Shown piece by piece: positions 2,487 through 28,505 of a stretch of 28,505 nt of DNA (position 1 is its first letter; each line of letters opens with the position of its first letter). Where the stretch lies: positions 1 to 28,505 of the IMG/VR virus record IMGVR_UViG_3300027896_000168; one strand, written 5' to 3'. The position numbers were made by a program, and so were the translations under genes. This stretch comes from a virus. The notes under the pieces were generated by a model. That model saw nothing but the letters and a program-made list of their open reading frames with translations, was not told the DNA's origin and did not search any database.

Positions 2487-3464
2487 TTATAAAAACTTGT
2501 CTCCTAAATATTCATCATATGAAGCCATTGTATCTTTAATATTTTGAATTTTGCACATATTAAAGAATTTTTCCATAGTAATATCACATATTTTACCTAC
2601 AGAATCTTGCACTGTGATTAAAGACTCACCGTTGCAGCACTTATGCTCGCGCAAGAAACGATCCTCGCCCAGACTAGCTAACTGTTCATCTGCCCATTTT
2701 TCATTTCTATCTGGATGGGCCTCCCATGTGGCCATGTATGGTTTAAATCCGTTAGTGCCAGTAACTGTTTCATTGCCGCTATTATCGACTAATTTATTAG
2801 CACTAAACCAAATATCAGCAAACTGATCTTCATCTGTATTAGGCGTACTAGTAATAATACATTTACCGCCGGTTGATAATGTAGGTGCAAGAGATGTCCA
2901 AAACTCTTTAGCAATACCTGCATCCACAAAAGCGAACTCATCTAAATATACCAAAGATAGCGACATACCACGGCCAGTATTTTCTGTGGTAGTAGTTGCG
3001 GTAATTTTCGATCCGTTATCGAATGCAATTGATCTTTTATTATACGTTGTTACACCGGCACGAATATGATCGGGGATTGATTCATAAGCATACCGTACTC
3101 GGTCCATAATATCCTGTGCCGAATCATACTTATATGAAGTAACTAGAATTTGAGCATCATCATTAAACATTGCATACCAAAGTAAGTATCCTGCAGCAAC
3201 AGCAGTTTTACCCATTTGTCGCGATACCATATTGATAGATTTTTTATAATGTGTATATGATTCAATTAAATCTAATTGAAAGTCGTAGGGAATAAACTTT
3301 TGTTTACCTTTTGTAGAATGTTGAACATACATAAAAGTTTTCATGAAATATAATGGACCCGAAACCGGGTCCATACATTCTTTTAATTCGTCTATTTGTT
3401 CTTTTGTATATCTTACTTTAGTATAAGCTCTTTTAACAAGCTTATCATCTTGATAAATTGCCAT
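2487..3464 (-). CDS. 17: Split terminase large subunit, N-half: ATPase + IntN
   Basis: This 325-residue protein is the N-terminal ATPase of T4 gp17-type large terminase (residues 1-275) fused to IntN (276-325). The ATPase powers DNA translocation into the prohead. It shows Walker A SRQMGKT (81-87), Walker B LVYLDEF (171-177) and coupling motif TSTPN (205-209). The extein ends LREHK275. The intein starts at Cys276 with C-C-N-G-E-S-L-I-T-V, a block A match (Cys1, acidic residue at 5, Ser/Thr at 6), and the gene stops after YLGDKFL. The nuclease domain is absent here and is encoded with IntC at 1207-2301. The gene starts 5 nt after the stop of the acidic 340-residue gene, so the two are probably co-transcribed. 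Confidence 0.94.
   Translation of the reverse strand: MAIYQDDKLVKRAYTKVRYTKEQIDELKECMDPVSGPLYFMKTFMYVQHSTKGKQKFIPYDFQLDLIESYTHYKKSINMVSRQMGKTAVAAGYLLWYAMFNDDAQILVTSYKYDSAQDIMDRVRYAYESIPDHIRAGVTTYNKRSIAFDNGSKITATTTTENTGRGMSLSLVYLDEFAFVDAGIAKEFWTSLAPTLSTGGKCIITSTPNTDEDQFADIWFSANKLVDNSGNETVTGTNGFKPYMATWEAHPDRNEKWADEQLASLGEDRFLREHKCCNGESLITVQDSVGKICDITMEKFFNMCKIQNIKDTMASYDEYLGDKFL
2490..2639 (-). other. Split intein, IntN half (50 aa)
   Basis: Residues 276-325 of the upstream terminase gene carry only intein block A and a following helical, charged tail. The break therefore falls between blocks A and B rather than at the usual endonuclease-insertion position between B and F. This is the atypical short-IntN arrangement of AceL-TerL, whose IntN is about 25 residues; this one is about twice as long. 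Confidence 0.9.
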
Positions 3465-8761: not shown

Positions 8762-10393
8762 TTACACTATTAAAGTGTTGTTCCACCGCCACTTACTGTT
8801 TCCACAGTCCCATATACGATCCCATCCTTGATCTTGTCGGTTTTGCCATTCGGTGAGTTCTGGGTTATCGTTTTTATTCTTTCTAAGAGAAAATCGGTGG
8901 TGTCGTATAATTTCATTAGGGTATACGTACCAATATCCTGGCGAAGAAATACTATCAAGTTTAAAATTTAATGCACTATACAAATTACCATTACTCCATC
9001 TTTGATCTGCATATGTTATAACCGTTGGTGGATTATAAAGTCTAGTAAATGCATTAAATAACTTAGATGCACCTCCAACTATTGATGTATTACTTGTTGT
9101 GCAAAATCTATTTAATTCCCACTCATTAACTTTTCTTGACAGATTGTTTTTAGAAAATGTCATAACTGCAACTAACTCATTTTGATAAAATAATCCAAAT
9201 CGAGCATTAGTTCTGCCATGACCCTGAATATGATATTCTTTACAGAAACTCGATGCAGTAGCGGTATCAATTTCCATGACTTGACATTTTCTTGCATATA
9301 TATTATTAGTCGACTTACGTAAGATATAGTATAATCTAGACTTAACAATTTCTTTTTTGTTTTCCCATTCATCCTCGAATATCGATATTAATCTAATTCC
9401 TAAATCGGTTACTTTTTTATATTTTTCAAAATCTGCTAGTTTACTACGGCCATTATATTCTAGTACTTTTTCAGAATGCCAATATAATCCATTAAACTCG
9501 ATGCCAATATTAAGGCTAGGGATAAAGATATCTAATTCATTTCTTTTAAGAAATTTGTAGTTTGGGATAGCATCGGGACATAATGTCTTGATATATTCAT
9601 ATATTTCTATTTCTTTATAACTTCGATTAGCAATAACCGGATAACATATATTACATCTATCAGTAGTAAATTTCGAAGGTTGAAACATCTGATGCGTATG
9701 TTCAAATTCGTTATCACATATGTTACATCTTAATTGTAAAAAACTATCATCAAAGCCACTTAATAAAGTTAAATTTGCAAGATGTATTCTTTCTAGCATT
9801 TCTAATTGTGCATTTTTACTTTTTATCTGATTTGCTTCCTTGCTCCTGACCGAAATTAGATCTTTAGAATATTGTGTATGCTTTCTTCCTCTAAAATGTG
9901 CCAAGTCATTTCCAGCTTTTCGTTGAGTCTCAATTGCTTTGTGACCTCTGATACTTAATTCATCACCGTGAGTTTCGGCATATCTTGATACACCTAGCGA
10001 TATTCGTAATTTTGTTTCTTCTGAATGCACTTGTGTATATCTAGTTAATTCTCCTGAAAGATATCGTTCTTCTCGTTTTTTAGCAGCGTTAATATATATA
10101 CTTGTATCTTCTAAAGTTGTATCTTTATTCCATGGTATTTTACCACTATTTTTAGATGAAATAGTAAGTTTTGATTCATCTGACATTTTATTACCGTAAT
10201 TGGGATTATTTTTACCTTTATTATTATCGGATCTTAGCTGCCTATATTCATCGGATGCAAGTGATTTATCTCCATAAATAGTTTTATATTCTGACGAAGT
10301 TATAGAATGCTGTTTAAGATGGGTACTTGAAATTATTTTATCAAATTGTTTATTGCAGATGTTGCATTTTATAGGCATGGGTAGATATTCCAT
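8762..10393 (-). CDS. EDxHD/Vsr-like free-standing homing endonuclease
   Basis: A 543-residue protein between the sheath and tail-tube genes. Its domains in order are: an N-terminal C2H2-like zinc finger (C10, C13, H25, H29); NUMOD-like DNA-binding segments (SKNSGKIPWNK, 80-90, and later basic repeats); a zinc ribbon (C223/C226 with C247/C250); and a Vsr-like nuclease core ELDIFIPSLNIGIEFNGLYW with D288, E299 and H306, followed by E340-D-E-W. The core fits the EDxHD homing endonucleases (I-Bth0305I type). The C-terminal region ends GWDRIWDCGNSKWRWN, shared with the 15826-17397 protein. The start may instead be Met6 (10378); neither has a strong ribosome site. Such genes cut and spread into homing-free alleles. 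The neighbours gp18 and gp19 appear intact, so this is an intergenic insertion. Confidence 0.85.
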   Translation of the reverse strand: MEYLPMPIKCNICNKQFDKIISSTHLKQHSITSSEYKTIYGDKSLASDEYRQLRSDNNKGKNNPNYGNKMSDESKLTISSKNSGKIPWNKDTTLEDTSIYINAAKKREERYLSGELTRYTQVHSEETKLRISLGVSRYAETHGDELSIRGHKAIETQRKAGNDLAHFRGRKHTQYSKDLISVRSKEANQIKSKNAQLEMLERIHLANLTLLSGFDDSFLQLRCNICDNEFEHTHQMFQPSKFTTDRCNICYPVIANRSYKEIEIYEYIKTLCPDAIPNYKFLKRNELDIFIPSLNIGIEFNGLYWHSEKVLEYNGRSKLADFEKYKKVTDLGIRLISIFEDEWENKKEIVKSRLYYILRKSTNNIYARKCQVMEIDTATASSFCKEYHIQGHGRTNARFGLFYQNELVAVMTFSKNNLSRKVNEWELNRFCTTSNTSIVGGASKLFNAFTRLYNPPTVITYADQRWSNGNLYSALNFKLDSISSPGYWYVYPNEIIRHHRFSLRKNKNDNPELTEWQNRQDQGWDRIWDCGNSKWRWNNTLIV

Positions 10394-15819: not shown

Positions 15820-15827
15820 TATTTATC
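15820..15827 (-). promoter_or_regulatory. Late-promoter-like GATAAATA before gp13-like gene
   Basis: Coding-strand TTTGATAAATAA overlaps the TGA stop of the upstream homing endonuclease and lies 23-30 nt before the neck-protein ATG. The endonuclease insertion thus leaves the neck gene with its own promoter. Confidence 0.5.
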
Positions 15828-17397
15828 AAATTGTCTTAGTCCATGCCCATACATCGTTGCCACAGTCCCATATTCTATCAAACCCATTTGCTTTCATATT
15901 TTCCCATTCTGACAACTTGGCATCAAATACGGGTAATAAATCCTTTATTTTACTTTTTTGATATTTTAATCTATTTTCTAATATATGATAATTTTTTGTA
16001 TATCTATATGAAGGCAAAGAACTGTGCGAAAATTCAAAATCTAATTTTTTATATAAGGAACTTGTACCAAAAGTGCGATGCGAATATGATACTATATTTT
16101 CTGGGTCGAAATCTTTTACAAATTTTAACAGTAATTTGGATGGGCCACCTACAATATTTTGGTATAAATCTGTAGAATACCTTAGTAATTCATAAGAAAA
16201 ATTTTTATTAAATCTTGATTTACCAAATGACATTGCTGCAACTATATTGTTGTCCAATGTTAGTCCATAACATATTGCGGACTTGGTATATCCTTGTAAA
16301 TGTGTTTTATTAAAAAATTCTTTTTCCTCAACTGTTGATAATTTTCTTATAAGGGTATTTCGGCCATAGATTCTGTTATTGAGTTTCAATTCATTTGAAA
16401 TCCTAGACTTGATAATTTCACTTTTTGTATGCCATTCGTTGTCATGCAAGTGTATAAGTTTATATCCTGCATTTTCCGCCAATTTGGTTTTATTTAAATG
16501 ATATTTGCTGTCTTTTCCTCCCATTACTTCACTATGCCATAGTATTCCATTACACTCGAATGCCAAATTCAGTTCAGGAATAACTATATCTAACTCTTGG
16601 CCATTTAATATAGTTCGATCATTTTTTAAAATTTCACAAGTTGTTATTGATGAAATATAAGTTTCAATTTCATTTTGCCAAACACTGGTATTATAGTGAT
16701 GTCGGTATTCTATATTATGCTTATTAAAAATTTTATATATTACACTGGAGGACGTACCTAATTCTTTAGAAATTGCGAGAGGTGTCTTAGTTTCATTTTG
16801 AGATTTTAGCCATTCAATGTTATCTAATTTTTCTATAACACTTTGGGACAAGTGCGACCTGGTATGAAAATTTATATTATTCTCTATATTTGATAATTTA
16901 TTTCTTTCTTTGACTTCATTATTTTTCATAATGTTTGTAACTCCGTATTTTTCTAAGAGAGAATTTTCTAAATTCTCTCTTATTTTACTAGAGTACATAG
17001 GGTTTGATACCCCGTAATTTTTATTCAACGTGTTTTTATATAACTCTCTGTTGTTATAAGTGGCATCGCCATATTTGATAGTTTTAGTATTTTTAATTTT
17101 TTCAATTCTTTGTTTATTTTTGTCGGTATCTTTAGATTTGCTCATTAGGCATTGACAGGAACTTGCTGGACCGCAGTATTTGTATCCTTTTTTAAAACTG
17201 TTAAATGTAAAATTATTGCCATTGCTACAAATAGGCCGTGGGTTTAGTAACAAATAGATTTTTTCGTTGATATCTAATACCTCGGGTAACTGACTATCGA
17301 TCCAAGCTAAAAGCTCTGAATCTTGTGATTTAATAATCTTGGAATAGTTATGCTCTTCGGGATAATTTAATATAAAATTCTTTAATTTATCAATCAT
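15826..17397 (-). CDS. Second EDxHD/Vsr-like homing endonuclease
   Basis: From ATG 17397 this is 523 residues (MIDKLKNFILNYPEEHNYS); a TTG at 17415 would add six and overlap the upstream gene. The N-terminal half holds a Cys-containing segment (CSNG to CGPASSCQC), two YGV repeats (KYGDATYN, NYGVSNPMYS, KYGVTNIMKN) typical of phage endonuclease DNA-binding regions, and a helix-turn-helix (TPLAISKELGTSSSVIYKIF). The nuclease core is ELDIVIPELNLAFECNGILW-HSE, with Asp, Glu and His in the same spacing as the 8762-10393 protein, and it shares the ending GFDRIWDCGNDVWAWT. It lies between the 372-residue gene and the neck gene. The AT-rich codon use is stronger than in the neighbours, consistent with a mobile gene. 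Confidence 0.82.
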   Translation of the reverse strand: MIDKLKNFILNYPEEHNYSKIIKSQDSELLAWIDSQLPEVLDINEKIYLLLNPRPICSNGNNFTFNSFKKGYKYCGPASSCQCLMSKSKDTDKNKQRIEKIKNTKTIKYGDATYNNRELYKNTLNKNYGVSNPMYSSKIRENLENSLLEKYGVTNIMKNNEVKERNKLSNIENNINFHTRSHLSQSVIEKLDNIEWLKSQNETKTPLAISKELGTSSSVIYKIFNKHNIEYRHHYNTSVWQNEIETYISSITTCEILKNDRTILNGQELDIVIPELNLAFECNGILWHSEVMGGKDSKYHLNKTKLAENAGYKLIHLHDNEWHTKSEIIKSRISNELKLNNRIYGRNTLIRKLSTVEEKEFFNKTHLQGYTKSAICYGLTLDNNIVAAMSFGKSRFNKNFSYELLRYSTDLYQNIVGGPSKLLLKFVKDFDPENIVSYSHRTFGTSSLYKKLDFEFSHSSLPSYRYTKNYHILENRLKYQKSKIKDLLPVFDAKLSEWENMKANGFDRIWDCGNDVWAWTKTI

Positions 17398-17404
17398 TGG
17401 AATT

Positions 17405-18523
17405 TTATCTTTCAACTCTTAGGATAATGTGATTCTCATTAAGTTTTCCGTTGCAAGGAATATCAATAGTGCTTAAATCCTTCATAAATGTTCGAAGTTT
17501 TACCTTACTAGCCTTTTTAAACTCTGCTAGTGCCTCGGCTGGCTTACGTATTGTTTTTTCTACAGAATCTGGCGAATAATTTACCAAGCTAGCCCCTTTA
17601 ACAGTAATCCCGGACTCGTCTAATGTCTTGTACTGCGATATCTTACGTGTTTTGACATTATAGAGCCATACCTCCTTACATCCGATAATTTGTACCGGAT
17701 TTGCACTAACAATACCTAATGTACTATCATCTTTCTTATATTTAAGTTTAGATACAATCTTCTCTTGCGATACAGGCTTTGCCTTGCGTGGCATACGTTC
17801 TACTTTTGCAACTTCTTGCATCATATTACATGCTTTGAATAAATTCTTATTAAATTGATCGTACTTCTTTAAATCAGCTTTAGTATAATTAGAATATCCT
17901 TCTAATAAATCTTTATCTTTGCCTTCTGCTGCTAATGTAATTTCTTTACTACGTTTATCAAATATTTCCGATATAATTCTTGCATGTGGAGATTTTATAT
18001 CATATGTCTTAAATAATGTAATAAAGTCGTCAACTGTTTTAACTGGTATTTTCCTATCCATATAAAAATCGTCGATCCATCCTTCGATTTCACCAGCCAC
18101 ATCGTGTGACTTTTCTTTTAGTCGATCTTGTATTGAAATAACTAATTTAGGAATAGTATTTTTAGAAGTTGGCAGATTTTTAATTTCTTCATCGGCTACT
18201 ATTTTTTCCAAGTGAAACATTATTGTAGGAATAATATTTTCAGGAATATCTCCACCATGATTTAATATATATAGATATTTTCCGATAACTGTAAATCTAT
18301 TTTCTTCTATTTTATCAACTTTAGATATTAGTGTGTGCTTAGGGTCTAATTTTTTTAGATAAGCTAATGTTTCTTTTTTTAGTTGTAATGAAGATAGTTC
18401 GTAATGAGCATAAATCATTGCTGCGTGAAAATTTGATTTAAAGTCTTTGTGTGTTATGACGATCAAATTAAATATGGGTTTTGACCATATAAGACAGTTA
18501 TCGTTATTTTTATTGCTTGCCAT
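17405..18523 (-). CDS. Conserved hypothetical T4-like phage protein, 372 aa
   Basis: MASNKNNDNCLIWSKPIFNL starts a 372-residue protein. The N-terminal two thirds are helical (ITHKDFKSNFHAAMIYAHYE and on). The end is a compact beta domain IGCKEVWLYNVKTRKISQYK, ITVKGASLVNYSPDSVEKTI, RKPAEALAEFKK and NENHIILRVER, a combination I associate with an uncharacterised protein of cyanophages and related T4-like phages. No catalytic motif is seen. It is preceded by a good sigma70-type promoter (TTGCAA-17-TAAAAT), which suggests early or middle expression, unlike the late structural genes downstream. A GAGGA ribosome site precedes the ATG. Confidence 0.8.
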   Translation of the reverse strand: MASNKNNDNCLIWSKPIFNLIVITHKDFKSNFHAAMIYAHYELSSLQLKKETLAYLKKLDPKHTLISKVDKIEENRFTVIGKYLYILNHGGDIPENIIPTIMFHLEKIVADEEIKNLPTSKNTIPKLVISIQDRLKEKSHDVAGEIEGWIDDFYMDRKIPVKTVDDFITLFKTYDIKSPHARIISEIFDKRSKEITLAAEGKDKDLLEGYSNYTKADLKKYDQFNKNLFKACNMMQEVAKVERMPRKAKPVSQEKIVSKLKYKKDDSTLGIVSANPVQIIGCKEVWLYNVKTRKISQYKTLDESGITVKGASLVNYSPDSVEKTIRKPAEALAEFKKASKVKLRTFMKDLSTIDIPCNGKLNENHIILRVER

Positions 18524-23589: not shown

Positions 23590-24024
23590 GTGGGAAAAGC
23601 AATTCAAAAAAAGCATTTCGGGTTAGGAACATCGGGTAGTAAACAAATTGTGGTTAATGGTGTTAAGTTTGCCGATGGGTCTGTTGCAACAAATGCATTT
23701 ATTATCAAACAAACTGGTTCAGCAGCATATGTTGTTCAAGATTCGGGTATGACACACGCTGCAGAAATCGTGTTTATGGTTAATGCAGCTTCTACTTCAG
23801 CATTGTTACCTAGTCAATGTTATATTCTTGCAACACCATTTGGCGGCACAGCATTACCTTGCTCTAAAATTGCACAATTTCGTGTAGATATTTTTAGTAC
23901 TGCAAATACAGTACCCACAGTTGTTGGTGGCGATATTGCAATTGATGCAAAAGGAATAGTTAGCTATAGCTGGGCATCAACCCCTGCAACTACACTAGGT
24001 CAAGCTGACTTACATTTATCATAA
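23590..24024 (+). CDS. Plus-strand small protein, probable structural
   Basis: The only plus-strand gene: 144 residues from GTG 23590 with a strong AAGGAG site. It starts (M)GKAIQKKHFGLGTSGSKQIV and continues NGVKFADGSVATNAFIIKQT GSAAYVVQ, then HAAEIVFMVNAASTSALLPS. The whole chain is beta-rich, Gly/Ala/Thr-rich and low in charge after the N-terminus. Its composition suits an abundant virion or decoration protein, and I recall similar starts in marine T4-like phages, but no function is proven. It has its own late-type promoter, a structured leader and a dedicated terminator, so it is a single-gene unit, probably highly expressed. Confidence 0.8.
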   Translation: MGKAIQKKHFGLGTSGSKQIVVNGVKFADGSVATNAFIIKQTGSAAYVVQDSGMTHAAEIVFMVNAASTSALLPSQCYILATPFGGTALPCSKIAQFRVDIFSTANTVPTVVGGDIAIDAKGIVSYSWASTPATTLGQADLHLS

Positions 24025-24068: not shown

Positions 24069-24569
24069 TTATGGTGTCAATTTTAGTATTACTAAATGTG
24101 CTGTAACTGCACTTGCGCCACCTGCCGAAGGCGTAATTGTTAAAGATCCGATATTACCTATTGGATTTCGCAAAGTAAGAACAGAGTTAGGCGTTGTTGT
24201 TGTAACAAGTGCCATTCCTGTAATTTGGTCGATCCCGTTTGCCCTACCGGCCACTGTATAAGCAAGTTCGGTGCCATTAAGCGTTAATACAAGTTGCCCG
24301 GCTTGGGTTACACTAACCTGAAACTGAACCATATAAGTACCAATCGTAGCTAGATTAAAGGTCGAAGTAGTAAGTCGTGTTATTGCTGTGCCGCCATTTG
24401 CCCCGGTCGACGGAAAGAGTACATTCGAACCTGGTGCCACTGCTACTGCATTGTCGGGTGGCATCGTAGCAAAAAAGTCTGCAAAGTTAATAATACCGGG
24501 TGTAACAGGCGGTATCTGAAAAGTAAATCTGGTACCCCGGCAACAATAATCATCATTATAATATCCCAT
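24069..24569 (-). CDS. BclA-C/TNF-like jelly-roll protein
   Basis: A 166-residue protein. After a short start MGYYNDDYCCRGTRFTF, residues 25-166 match the C-terminal jelly-roll of collagen-like exosporium protein BclA: INFADFFATMPPDNAVAVAP, GSNVLFPSTGANGG, FNLATIGTYMVQFQVSVTQA, GQLVLTLNGTELAYTVAGRA and SVLTLRNPIGNIGSLTITP. The fold trimerises and usually tips fibres in bacilli and some viruses. No collagen repeat is present. In this phage it probably caps a fibre or decorates the virion. It has an AGGAG ribosome site and an exact TATAAATA late element 18-25 nt upstream. Confidence 0.8.
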   Translation of the reverse strand: MGYYNDDYCCRGTRFTFQIPPVTPGIINFADFFATMPPDNAVAVAPGSNVLFPSTGANGGTAITRLTTSTFNLATIGTYMVQFQVSVTQAGQLVLTLNGTELAYTVAGRANGIDQITGMALVTTTTPNSVLTLRNPIGNIGSLTITPSAGGASAVTAHLVILKLTP

Positions 24570-24586
24570 ATATTTCTCCTAATTAT

Positions 24587-24594
24587 TATTTATA
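24587..24594 (-). promoter_or_regulatory. Late promoter TATAAATA
   Basis: Coding-strand TATAAATAATAATT is an exact match to the T4 late -10, 18-25 nt before the start of the jelly-roll gene. Confidence 0.5.
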
Positions 24595-24595
24595 T

Positions 24596-24610
24596 TTACA
24601 ACAGTTGTAA
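24596..24610. repeat. 15-nt palindrome next to late promoter
   Basis: TTACAAC-A-GTTGTAA is a perfect inverted repeat directly upstream of the TATAAATA element of the jelly-roll gene. It could be an operator or an incidental AT-rich palindrome. Confidence 0.3.
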
Positions 24611-24692
24611 TATATTTCTATACAACACTATCACTATCCTAACTTTAGTATAATCATTAAAATACCCACAAGCTTTTTATTTTTATATTAGG

Positions 24693-25427
24693 CTAGACTA
24701 GGCGCCACGCACCGGATCGGAATACTACAGTTAAACTAGCATTAGTACCCAGACTTTTAGTAGCCGAAGCATCTAATAATTGTCCACCTGTGCCAGTTAC
24801 AGTGGTATTACCATTGGTTTCATTTTTAATAATATATGTTTTGCCAACAACACCGGTGGGTAATGTAATCGTCGTTGGGTTAGCCGTAACACCGATATAC
24901 TCGTCAGTAGCAAGTGCAGTATAATTAATTGCTGTTCCTACTGTAGATATTAAGGATGCACTGCTTGCACTAATAGTAACTGCACCACTGGAACCACTAA
25001 CGCTAATATTTGTACCGGCAATAATGCTTGTAACACCTGTGTTATTAACTGTAAATGCAGCTGCCGGGCCATTAGTTGTTACACCAGTTAAGCTAATACC
25101 GGGCCCGGCAGTCGGTGTTACGCTAGTAACAACACTGTTACCATTTAAATTTAATGTACCGCTTGCACTTACATTAACAGCAGTCAATGTATTTGTAATT
25201 GGATTGTAAGTTAAGTCGCCATCGTCTGTTAATAGTCCGGCTGTGCCGGCAAATGTAATTCTACCGGCAGTTAATGCACTGTCAGTTACATTAGCAAAGG
25301 TAACGCTAGCCGAAGTTGCCACGCTTTGTGGGATTGATATGATGCTATTAGCATCAACATTAATATTTGATCCAACTTGGACTATCCCGAGGTCAGTTGT
25401 GGTTGCATCTGGAAATAAGTATGACAT
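24693..25427 (-). CDS. Fibre-like protein with C-terminal adhesion module
   Basis: A 244-residue Ser/Thr/Asn/Gly-rich, almost fully beta protein. It starts MSYLFPDATTTDLGIVQVGS, the leader shared with the 25454 and 26985 proteins and typical of tail-fibre N-termini. The centre has fibre-type repeats (SVTFANVTDSALTAGRITFA, GPGISLTGVTTNGPAAAFTV). The last 75 residues (YTALATDEYIGVTANPTTIT, LPTGVVGKTYIIKN, VVFRSGAWRLV) are a module repeated in the 25983, 26257 and 26673 genes. It ends with TAG, one of the few TAG stops here. An AAGGAG ribosome site precedes it. It is probably a virion surface or fibre component. Confidence 0.75.
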   Translation of the reverse strand: MSYLFPDATTTDLGIVQVGSNINVDANSIISIPQSVATSASVTFANVTDSALTAGRITFAGTAGLLTDDGDLTYNPITNTLTAVNVSASGTLNLNGNSVVTSVTPTAGPGISLTGVTTNGPAAAFTVNNTGVTSIIAGTNISVSGSSGAVTISASSASLISTVGTAINYTALATDEYIGVTANPTTITLPTGVVGKTYIIKNETNGNTTVTGTGGQLLDASATKSLGTNASLTVVFRSGAWRLV

Positions 25428-25453
25428 TGTTTTCTCCTTGTGTAAATGTCGAA

Positions 25454-25972
25454 TTAGCTTGCGCTAAGATAAGTTATAGTTCCTACTAATCTCGTAGGGC
25501 TAGAGCCTGCTTGAATGTCATCATATGTTAGTCTAACATTTGATGAGGCATTATTTATAGTGTATAATAAAACTGAAGTCGAAGATCCTAGTACAGTACC
25601 TGATAGGTATGATCGATTAGCGTCTAAGTTCATAAAAATGGTAACAACTAAACTACCTACTACACCTGTACCCGAAGTACTTGTAAATGGTAATCCATTT
25701 AGTGTTAGTGTATTAGAGTCAGCCCCGCCGGTTTTTGTTGCTACAGTAAAATCAAAATAACAAATAACTTGTTGTCCCATTTTGGCATATGTAGCTGTAG
25801 ATGGTGTTATAGTAACAGTACCGGCTGTGCTGACTGCAATAGCAGGTGTCCAGCTACCAATAGTAGAGTCAACGCCGGTGCTGGATATAACACCATTATT
25901 AATAGTGATATTAGTGCCGGCGCTGACTACACCAAGTGTTGTACCATTTGCTGGTGGAAATAAGTATGACAT
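25454..25972 (-). CDS. Small fibre-like protein with shared MSYLFP leader
   Basis: From ATG 25972 (AAGGA 7 nt upstream) it is 172 residues; an earlier Met at 26011 lacks such a site. The leader MSYLFPPANGTTLGVVSAGT with NITINNGVISS is the same type as in 24693 and 26985. The rest is a beta-sandwich-like domain (GSWTPAIAVSTAGTVTITPS, TYAKMGQQVICYFDFTVATK, NRSYLSGTVLGS) resembling small virion or head-fibre domains. It lacks the shared C-terminal module. Function is inferred from context and composition only. Confidence 0.7.
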   Translation of the reverse strand: MSYLFPPANGTTLGVVSAGTNITINNGVISSTGVDSTIGSWTPAIAVSTAGTVTITPSTATYAKMGQQVICYFDFTVATKTGGADSNTLTLNGLPFTSTSGTGVVGSLVVTIFMNLDANRSYLSGTVLGSSTSVLLYTINNASSNVRLTYDDIQAGSSPTRLVGTITYLSAS

Positions 25973-25982
25973 ATAGATTCCT

Positions 25983-26252
25983 TTATAATATTTTCCAAGT
26001 AGTACCATCAAATACTACTGTAAATCCGGCGTTAGTTTTTAGTATTTTAAAGACGCTTCCTTCGATAGTTTCACCCCCAGTACCTTGAACTTGTATATCT
26101 CCTGGTGATTGATTTTTTATCTGATAAAATCTACCAAAAATACCTGTAGGTAAAGTAATGGTTATATTACTACCAGTAGCGCCGATATACTGATCAATAT
26201 CGGTAATAATATAATCAACTGAAGTAAATATTATATTTAAAAAATTATTCAT
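25983..26252 (-). CDS. Single adhesion-module protein, 89 aa
   Basis: It consists of little more than one copy of the shared module: VDYIITDIDQYIGATGSNIT, ITLPTGIFGRFYQIKN, IQVQGTGGETIEG and FTVVFDGTTWKIL. It lacks the MSYLFP leader and begins MNNFLNIIFTS. A ribosome site is not clear. It lies between two related genes in the cassette and probably arose by module duplication. Confidence 0.7.
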   Translation of the reverse strand: MNNFLNIIFTSVDYIITDIDQYIGATGSNITITLPTGIFGRFYQIKNQSPGDIQVQGTGGETIEGSVFKILKTNAGFTVVFDGTTWKIL

Positions 26253-26256
26253 AATA

Positions 26257-26658
26257 TTATAAAATTAACCACTGTACGCCATCATAAACTAATGTTAACG
26301 ATCCATATGGTGTGTTAATAACTGCTGTGGCTGCTCCATCAATCGTACCAGCTGCAGGTGTAATAGTTATAGGAGTTAATGGCGATGCTAGACCTAACCC
26401 ATCTTTAATATTAATGACTTTACCTAGTACACCTATCGGTAAAGTAACTGCTACAGCAACTGGTCCTGGCACCTGAACTGCAATTACGTCGTCTGTGGTT
26501 GAACTTACTACTACTGGAGTAACAATTGCAATTCGAACTGCAACAATTGGTACGCCGCTTGTTGCAATTGTAATTTCATTTGCACCAACACCTACGGTAG
26601 GTGAAATTATAATACCCGAGCCTGCAATAATCGAAGTTGGATTATTAGTATATGACAT
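26257..26658 (-). CDS. Small fibre-like protein with adhesion module
   Basis: From ATG 26658 with AAGGA upstream it is 133 residues, starting MSYTNNPTSIIAGSGIIISP; a Met at 26709 would overlap the preceding gene. The last 85 residues are a diverged copy of the shared module (STTDDVIAVQVPGPVAVAVT, LPIGVLGKVINIKD, TITPAAGTIDGAATAVINTP, LTLVYDGVQWLIL). This version matches the general bacterial and phage beta-solenoid-like module in which ITITPAAGTIDGA precedes an aromatic W-x-I end. Confidence 0.72.
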   Translation of the reverse strand: MSYTNNPTSIIAGSGIIISPTVGVGANEITIATSGVPIVAVRIAIVTPVVVSSTTDDVIAVQVPGPVAVAVTLPIGVLGKVINIKDGLGLASPLTPITITPAAGTIDGAATAVINTPYGSLTLVYDGVQWLIL

Positions 26659-26672
26659 TTTAAGATTCCTTT

Positions 26673-26975
26673 TTAATTGGTTAGTGTTTGCCAGTTTGCA
26701 CCATCCCACATTATTTGGATATGGCTATAGTTAACATTAAGGATGGCAAAACTCACTCCGTTAATGGTTGCACTACCTGTTGCGGTAATAACAATAGGAT
26801 TACTTTGAGCATTACCAGAGTAATCTTTAATATAGAAACTAGTATTCTTGCCAACTTCAATCGTTGGTAGTATAATTGAAGCACTGGCTGGCACATTTAC
26901 AAATACTGTTTCATCAGAAGTTTTAACTGTATATGGAGTTGTTGTAACTACTGTTAGATTATAATTAATTGTCAT
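26673..26975 (-). CDS. Single adhesion-module protein, 100 aa
   Basis: A 100-residue protein with an AAGGA ribosome site, MTINYNLTVVTTTPYTVKTS, then ETVFVNVPASASIILPTIEV, GKNTSFYIKDYSGNAQSNPI, VITATGSATINGVSFAILNV and MWDGANWQTLTN. It is almost entirely one copy of the module shared with its neighbours, and diverged enough to suggest an old duplication. Confidence 0.72.
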   Translation of the reverse strand: MTINYNLTVVTTTPYTVKTSDETVFVNVPASASIILPTIEVGKNTSFYIKDYSGNAQSNPIVITATGSATINGVSFAILNVNYSHIQIMWDGANWQTLTN

Positions 26976-26984
26976 AATATTTCC

Positions 26985-27536
26985 TTAACTGATTCTAGTC
27001 AGGGTAGCTTTAATACTGTCACCTGTTGGGCGAATTGGCAAAACACCTGCTGGTATTGCTGTTAATGCCACAGTAGTATCTGCACTACTCCAACACATTT
27101 GTATATTGCCACCGGCTGGTATATTTAATGTAAAATTACCAGATGTAAAGATTTGTGCTAAGGTATTAATAAGTTCTAAGTCTTGTCTCGAACCTGGGAC
27201 ATCAACTCCATTTAATCGTAACCAAAAACTTACACTACTTGTACCGCCTGCTGTCTTGTTTATATTTAAGGTAAATAATTTGGTGTAAGTACCGGCATTT
27301 GCTACAGTAAGTGCATTACCACCTGTTATACTAATACCATTGGTCGGACCCGAAACCGAAAAGGTAACAATATTAATGGCATTTGCAACTGGGTTAGTTT
27401 GAGTTCCGTCAGAAAAGAACCCGTAATTCAACAGACCTAGCGTAGCTGATACTAATCCGTTAGTCACGCTTAACCCGGTGCCAGCTTGCATAACTCCAAA
27501 GTCAGTAGTTGATGCTAATGGTGCTTTGTAACTCAT
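26985..27536 (-). CDS. Fibre-like protein with jelly-roll-like domain
   Basis: A 183-residue protein starting MSYKAPLASTTDFGVMQAGT with GLSVTNGLVSA, the leader shared in the cassette. The body (NIVTFSVSGPTNGISITGGN, TVANAGTYTKLFTLNINKTA, VSFWLRLNGVDVPGSRQDLE, FTLNIPAGGNIQMCWSSADT) looks like a TNF/C1q-type jelly-roll domain of viral fibres. It begins 1 nt after the DUF3494 gene stop (27538), so the cassette is one operon. Probably a virion-surface protein. Confidence 0.72.
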   Translation of the reverse strand: MSYKAPLASTTDFGVMQAGTGLSVTNGLVSATLGLLNYGFFSDGTQTNPVANAINIVTFSVSGPTNGISITGGNALTVANAGTYTKLFTLNINKTAGGTSSVSFWLRLNGVDVPGSRQDLELINTLAQIFTSGNFTLNIPAGGNIQMCWSSADTTVALTAIPAGVLPIRPTGDSIKATLTRIS

Positions 27537-27537
27537 A

Positions 27538-28505
27538 TTATATCATCCTTATTAGTGTGAGAATTCTGTTGCTAGTCGTAATAGTGCCGATCGCAACAGA
27601 TATTCTTATATCCAGTGATTGGCCAGTTGCTATAGTGGCAGGTGATTGTAATACAATTGCCTGGTCGTATATTTCGTCGGCGCCGCGGCGTTTAACTTGT
27701 ACAGAGGCAGGTATTACTACACCATTGACATATATTCCATACTCTGCAACAGCAGATCCGGTAGCGGGTGTGTATATTGCGCCATTGACTACCGACGGAG
27801 GGCCGAATCCTGCTACTGCGCCAAAATTAGTGCCTATATCGCCGTTTACAGTCGAAGTCCCTGTATTGGCTATTTCGCCGTTTGAAGTAAATATACCGAA
27901 TGTTGATAGTATACCTAATGTTATAACTGAAACAGTGACTGGTGTATTAATTAATACGGTATTAGTAGGTATTGCTCCTAGTGTTGAAAGTAATCTGCCG
28001 TTAAGAGTAGTATTAAGACCTGTCGATGCTGCACCAGGCGAGCCAATCATAGATCCTGCAAACGTACTATTTGCGCCGGTAGATACTGCGCCGCCTGCCA
28101 GCCAAAATACGTTTGCAGGATCTGCACCGTTAATTGTTACTATATCGGAACTGGCACCGGTACTCCAAGCTGCACCAATTCTAAATACAAATAGTGCGTT
28201 GGGATTACCTCCGCCATCTAGTGTTAAAATATTTGCGGCACCTAGTGTAGCGGCACCTGCTACGTCGTATACTCCGGGAGTTATTGTTTCAGTAACAAAG
28301 GAAGGAGTATGTATACCAGTAGCAGGTAATGATAATAAATTTGCAACTAGTGTAGTTAATGCCGCTGCTGCTAAGGCGGTTACGCTTGTACCTATGCTAG
28401 AGAATTGGCTGTTAAATAACACAAGATAATTCCCTGCAATCGGTGTTAATGTCATACCACTCAATACTGCAGGCGGGGCTGGACCAGGTACCATAGTATC
28501 TCCCA
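27538..28505 (-). CDS. DUF3494 ice-binding-like protein, 5' end beyond window
   Basis: The frame is open through the right edge (GDT before Met 28494), so the start probably lies outside. Residues after VTETITPGVYDVAGAATLGA, then ILTLDGGGNPNALFVFRIGA, INGADPANVFWLAGGAVSTG and TLNGRLLSTLGAI match the C-terminal part of DUF3494 (ice-binding protein family). Next, LGILSTFGIFTSNGEIANTG and TSTVNGDIGTNFGAVAGFGP match the family's N-terminal part, which is in reversed order relative to the standard domain. DUF3494 forms a beta-helix used by bacteria for ice binding or adhesion. In a phage fibre cassette, a surface or adhesion role is more likely than ice binding. The far N-terminal segment MTLTPIAGNYLVLFNSQFSS is a common jelly-roll start. 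Confidence 0.75.
   Translation of the reverse strand, partial: GDTMVPGPAPPAVLSGMTLTPIAGNYLVLFNSQFSSIGTSVTALAAAALTTLVANLLSLPATGIHTPSFVTETITPGVYDVAGAATLGAANILTLDGGGNPNALFVFRIGAAWSTGASSDIVTINGADPANVFWLAGGAVSTGANSTFAGSMIGSPGAASTGLNTTLNGRLLSTLGAIPTNTVLINTPVTVSVITLGILSTFGIFTSNGEIANTGTSTVNGDIGTNFGAVAGFGPPSVVNGAIYTPATGSAVAEYGIYVNGVVIPASVQVKRRGADEIYDQAIVLQSPATIATGQSLDIRISVAIGTITTSNRILTLIRMI

Follow-up and report, generated by a model that had tools for sequence, protein, structure and literature searches.

A circularly permuted DUF3494 beta-helix within a split jelly roll in the probable fibre head of a jumbo-type phage

The DUF3494 protein TisAFP7 consists of an N-terminal part (residues 16-73), a long helix (74-97) and a C-terminal part (98-223), and its coils stack in the order 1-6-5-4-3-2, which has been termed unusual among beta-helices (PMC7966756). 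The same coil order is found in IBPv (PMC5673226). Here we describe a phage protein in which the two halves of this domain follow each other in the opposite order, between the two parts of another domain. It is encoded by the terminal minus-strand ORF (27538-28503, 321 aa) of the window, that is, of the entire virus record of 28,505 bases, which is classed as linear, a class that is often a fragment. The frame is open throughout and runs past the end of the record. The first-pass annotation of this DNA had reported, at 27538-28505, a segment matching the C-terminal half of the family ahead of one matching the N-terminal half, and both the location and the order were borne out by the profile searches.

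In a Pfam search of the window protein, residues 46-179 matched profile positions 71-201 of PF11999 (E 2.8e-27), and in a six-frame search residues 207-247, approximately, matched positions 3-54 (E 6.7e-4; E 6e-3 alone). The whole-protein score for PF11999 (Ice_binding) was 96.2 bits, above the curated cut-off of 28.7, and the profile matched 11 of 11 members of alignment A3. Half-specific HMMs trained exclusively on ordinary-order DUF3494 proteins placed the C-half at residues 40-193 (106 bits) and the N-half at residues 195-243 (23 bits). When the halves were rearranged into canonical order, a single alignment covering positions 3-201 of the 208 in the profile was obtained, at 105.1 bits versus 95.5 in the native order. 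The canonical linear order of N-half, helix and C-half is therefore absent, with the C-half preceding the N-half, and by its sequence the window protein is a permuted DUF3494 variant, not a canonical member. The final 74 residues or so are not DUF3494.

The C-half (residues 38-190; 27934-28392, minus strand) comprises the long helix and then coils 2-6, and the N-half (residues 191-247; 27763-27933, minus strand) comprises coil 1 and the head. They are enclosed by the N-terminal part of a TNF/BclA-like jelly roll (residues 1-37; 28393-28503, minus strand), whose first strands lie beyond the end of the record, and by its C-terminal part (residues 248-321 plus the stop codon; 27538-27762, minus strand). 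The order is thus jelly-roll N-half, DUF3494 C-half, DUF3494 N-half and jelly-roll C-half. That the flanks are two halves of one jelly roll had been missed in the earlier annotation, and it explains the permuted arrangement of the DUF3494 domain. Against a jelly-roll HMM made from bacterial members only, the flanks joined without DUF3494 scored 91 bits over positions 21-120, with none of 1955 scored shuffles exceeding 10.4, and the C-terminal flank (248-321) alone scored 57 bits. The joined flanks also gave a weak, contiguous match to Pfam BclA_C (PF18573) over profile positions 44-121 (E 2.3e-4), neither piece matching alone; this match was cut-dependent (E 7e-3 with a slightly different cut), and the best score with the insert removed was 21.5 bits against a Pfam cut-off of 38. 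The joined-flank profile gave no alignment to the BclA_C gene of the same window, and among PDB sequences it found chance hits to designed repeats only, so the jelly-roll call rests on structure and homologues.

One of these homologues lacks the insert. An uninterrupted paralogue (L077:2004-2675) lies inside a Bacteroidota array of inserted paralogues and is 224 aa long, versus 440-480 aa for the other array members. It has no DUF3494, but the same kind of start and the same C-terminal jelly roll, of which positions 8-116 were matched in one stretch. Judged from its sequence, this protein carries the host domain in unbroken form, representing either the pre-insertion state or a loss.

Structure prediction, proposed in the first-pass annotation as a check, supported the presence of a DUF3494 fold and a jelly roll within one chain. 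The AlphaFold2 model of the window protein with ten relatives had a mean pLDDT of 89.5 and a pTM of 0.75; all predictions were of single chains. Residues 38-190 of the model matched DUF3494 crystal structures with Z 17-21 and rmsd 1.1-1.6 over 143-152 residues; for 5uyt and 7bwy the values were Z 19-21 and rmsd 1.1-1.5 (5uyt: Z 20.7, rmsd 1.1, 152 aligned). The predicted model has the DUF3494 beta-helix fold by this measure. The DUF3494 N-half matched 5uyt residues 4-45 and the start of the second domain of 5uyt. In addition, two ordinary sequential beta-helices, 4wa0 (residues 58-248, 158 aligned, Z 12.0) and 1ee6 (residues 71-249, 156 aligned, Z 10.6), could be aligned across both DUF3494 halves, as would be expected were the solenoid to run on into the N-half. 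The flanks formed strands at 12-19 and 24-37 on the N-terminal side and at 249-319 on the C-terminal side. Taken together, the chain ends (108 residues within 1-321) matched the TNF-like lectins BC2L-C (2wq4, Z 13.5) and PLTL (9ib7, Z 13.2) with an rmsd of about 2; further matches were BclA and the short tail fibre domain of a cyanophage. A jelly-roll sandwich was thus recognised in the predicted models of both the window protein (Z 13.5) and a complete relative, L069:5350-6468 (Z 15.0 to PLTL), whose model had a pLDDT of 84.3 and Z 21.6 to 5uyt.

These data are consistent with a model in which a whole, circularly permuted DUF3494 beta-helix would be inserted in a jelly-roll loop between two neighbouring strands. 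The break in the canonical domain would lie at the boundary of the N-terminal part with the long helix, and a linker of about 8 residues would bridge the former termini. Since canonical coil 1 packs against the final coil, number 6, the permuted chain would run 2-3-4-5-6-1 and form a sequential solenoid. The new ends would correspond to the canonical 73/74 junction; because the canonical chain is continuous there, they should be close together, as suits a loop, and would fit the one between strands 24-37 and 249-259. We infer this sequential solenoid with loop-ready ends from the published coil order and the predicted model.

The gene belongs to a phage whose tail sheath is nearest to those of Pseudomonas jumbo phages of the PA5oct type (45%). 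The gene order rIIA, rIIB, head-tail adaptor, sheath, homing endonuclease and tube is as in Deifobo (Arenbergviridae). Upstream of rIIA, no annotated fibre genes are present in the 14 kb of Deifobo seen, whereas the window has a small fibre-gene cluster. The neighbour of the window gene (26985-27536, minus strand) codes for a short fibre protein. Its N-terminal tag, MSYKAPLAS..GVMQAGTGL, recurs in the complete relatives in L069, and its head is of another, C1q-like type with a weak match to the jelly-roll HMM. The remaining small fibre genes (24069-26975, minus strand) match collagen-like minor tail and baseplate PHROGs, and the last of them (24069-24569, minus strand) has a BclA_C head (E 4.4e-10). 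This cluster adjoins rIIA, and several of its genes have a common short N-terminal tag with differing heads. Since the same MSY... tag is borne by several cluster genes and by the complete relatives in L069, the window gene most likely codes for a virion fibre protein that combines a common anchor with an exchangeable head. Overall, we consider it very probable that the head of a virion fibre protein is formed here by a split jelly roll holding a permuted DUF3494 beta-helix.

Elsewhere in the window, the terminase large subunit is apparently split over two minus-strand ORFs (1207-2301 and 2487-3464, matching positions 626-880 and 435-633 of phrog_36964), perhaps by an intron or intein. Two long minus-strand ORFs for homing endonucleases (8762-10393 and 15826-17415) lie amid the tail genes, and Deifobo likewise has one homing endonuclease after the sheath. 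A lone plus-strand ORF of 144 aa (23590-24024) is located between the fibre cluster and rIIA.

The same arrangement recurs in complete genes. A scan with the C-half alignment yielded 63 virus-contig loci encoding DUF3494, the majority in ordinary order (row 2 of alignment A2 is a generic DUF3494 consensus used as a search probe and counts as no evidence). With the ordinary-only HMMs, the distinct DUF3494 ORFs in the loci included 26 with the C-then-N order and no N-half upstream, 75 with the N-C order and 11 with the N-C-N-C order; 13 of the C-only ORFs, whose N-half was below the HMM threshold, were judged permuted by eye. The four-part order was observed in complete viral ORFs (L007, L008, L010 (= L069), L011, L012, L014, L017, L018 and L070), including two adjacent copies in L010/L069 and two adjacent genes in L018, and in ORFs touching the contig end in L009 and L015. 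In the bacterial loci L076-L083, complete genes likewise had the C-then-N order with no N-half upstream. A prokaryote genome scan detected the permuted form in Flavobacterium restrictum, F. yafengii, F. ranwuense and several Bacteroidota MAGs. In the bacterial proteins it is preceded by a signal-peptide-like start and a QVGIGT...SSILD...PRMT segment, with collagen-like repeats in some, and in some of the genomes several permuted genes lie in a row. Such arrays of adjacent permuted DUF3494 jelly-roll genes (L077, L078, L079 and L082, in Bacteroidota including F. yafengii and F. ranwuense) are suggestive of a variable family of surface proteins. Among 296 sampled Bacteroidota genomes, full-length matches were present in the query genome and one other only, indicating that the permuted form is uncommon in this phylum. 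The occurrence of one arrangement in other viruses and in cold-living Bacteroidota indicates a real protein design.

A DUF3494 domain in a phage fibre operon had been called unusual in the first-pass annotation. This was borne out in part: DUF3494 occurs at 63 loci on virus contigs, but tblastn of three permuted proteins against 50,697 named phage records gave no match. Queries with the insert-free jelly roll likewise had no significant hit in named phages. One viral protein of 2289 residues (L033:746-7612), with DUF3494 pieces in the order N-C-C-N, was considered as a second permutation and rejected; its last unit is an N-half plus helix, no jelly roll was seen around it, and it is probably a broken tandem protein.

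With regard to function, the short N-terminal MSY... tag would serve as virion anchor, trimers would form through the jelly roll, and the solenoids would project from the tip as adhesive arms binding sugars or particles on the host surface. We lean slightly towards a putative role of this kind, an adhesive fibre tip composed of a tag-anchored jelly roll with a beta-helix arm. In BC2L-C and PLTL this jelly-roll fold is a sugar binder. A broader and more tentative proposal, which we regard as possible, is that the permuted DUF3494 solenoid may serve phages and cold-living Bacteroidota as an exchangeable module for adhesion, fitted into trimeric jelly-roll tips to form receptor- or ice-grasping arms.

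Alternatively, the permuted domain might still bind ice, which would make the fibre or bacterial surface protein a putative ice adhesin. DUF3494 is a common microbial ice-binding fold, the permuted form is carried by F. restrictum, F. ranwuense and F. yafengii, and the first and last of these are named in work on glacier Flavobacterium. However, the motif T-A/G-X-T/N, characteristic of some DUF3494 ice binders, occurs twice in the window protein versus a shuffle mean of 1.97 and lacks conservation among the family members. DUF3494 is also found outside icy habitats (PMC12337378), and we regard ice binding as unlikely. Equally doubtful is the view that the insert has no binding role and serves the tip as a mere spacer or protease shield. 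The natural insert-free paralogue in the same array implies that the jelly roll can do without the insert; nevertheless, the insert is kept as a whole domain across viruses and bacteria, with 35-47% identity to the window protein and invariant core residues.

The arrangement itself could in principle be a tandem DUF3494 junction, with the N-half of a first copy beyond the window and an incomplete second copy that runs into an unrelated tail. The first-pass annotation had left the choice between circular permutation and such a junction, suggesting a test for tandem halves. Tandem DUF3494 proteins from Bacteroidota are closely related and could plausibly be ancestral, and the C1-N2 stretch of 5uyt is colinear with the window protein. 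However, the 35 or so residues before the C-half are jelly roll that pairs with the tail, not a DUF3494 N-half, and the complete relatives have no N-half upstream. Instead of two complete N-C units, one C and one N unit were found in the window protein, which lacks its upstream part. An exact-pattern search of other virus contigs with the record end, aiming at the upstream extension, gave no match; the start of the gene lies beyond the record, and that no N-half precedes the C-half in the window gene is argued from its homologues. We consequently retain the circular permutation and hold the tandem junction to be very improbable. An assembly chimera or decayed gene, suggested by the position at the end of a metagenomic record, can be virtually dismissed, given the open frame and the recurrence of the same order, with diverged sequence, in many independent contigs and in Flavobacterium strain genomes.

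As to the origin of the circular permutation, the C-half tree placed the permuted forms, which occur in both viruses and bacteria, in one group with tandem and ordinary forms from Bacteroidota (SH-aLRT 97); most ordinary forms from viruses fell outside this group. In the first free quick tree, ordinary and tandem rows were interspersed among the permuted rows; when all 30 permuted rows were kept in a single clade, the likelihood was higher by 29 log units (AU p 0.797), and a single origin was not rejected by these sequences. It is plausible that the permuted form arose once, perhaps from the C1-N2 stretch of a tandem DUF3494 protein.

Natural circular permutations are seldom found alongside what explains them. 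Here the permuted domain, the insert-free host domain and the unpermuted tandem relatives are all extant, which makes domain insertability directly testable. The permutation straightens the odd out-of-order coils of DUF3494 and bears on why that order exists. If the exchangeable-module proposal is true, this would be a natural case of circular permutation making a domain insertable. For phage biology it would represent a new kind of fibre tip, and for annotation it means that proteins called 'ice-binding' from a Pfam match may be fibre heads. In the open-access literature that we searched, no paper paired DUF3494 with phage or with circular permutation. The rewired ice-binding fold in the probable fibre tip of a jumbo-type phage is apparently an unreported, real protein design.

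Compared with known systems, the window protein has the same two halves, long helix and triangular right-handed beta-helix as DUF3494/PF11999 proteins such as IBPv (5uyt), TisAFP7 and SfIBP_1 (Z about 20). It differs from their canonical stacking of 1-6-5-4-3-2 in its predicted order of 2-3-4-5-6-1 and in being inserted in another domain. The same C-then-N junction also lies within the IBPv-type tandem DUF3494 proteins of Bacteroidota, but they have complete outer halves and no jelly roll. The jelly roll formed by the chain ends is like the TNF-like lectins and BclA-type heads (BC2L-C N-domain, 2wq4; PLTL, 9ib7; BclA, 1wck; PF18573), with Z 10-15 and an rmsd of about 2, a likeness in the predicted fold only; unlike them, it is interrupted by a beta-helix of about 210 residues. 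Similarly, the short tail fibre domain of cyanophage A-1(L) (8ke9) and the portal-tail protein of cyanophage A4 (9k09) have the same type of jelly-roll head (Z 10.4-11.9), and these matches are confined to the jelly roll and leave the DUF3494 insert uncovered.
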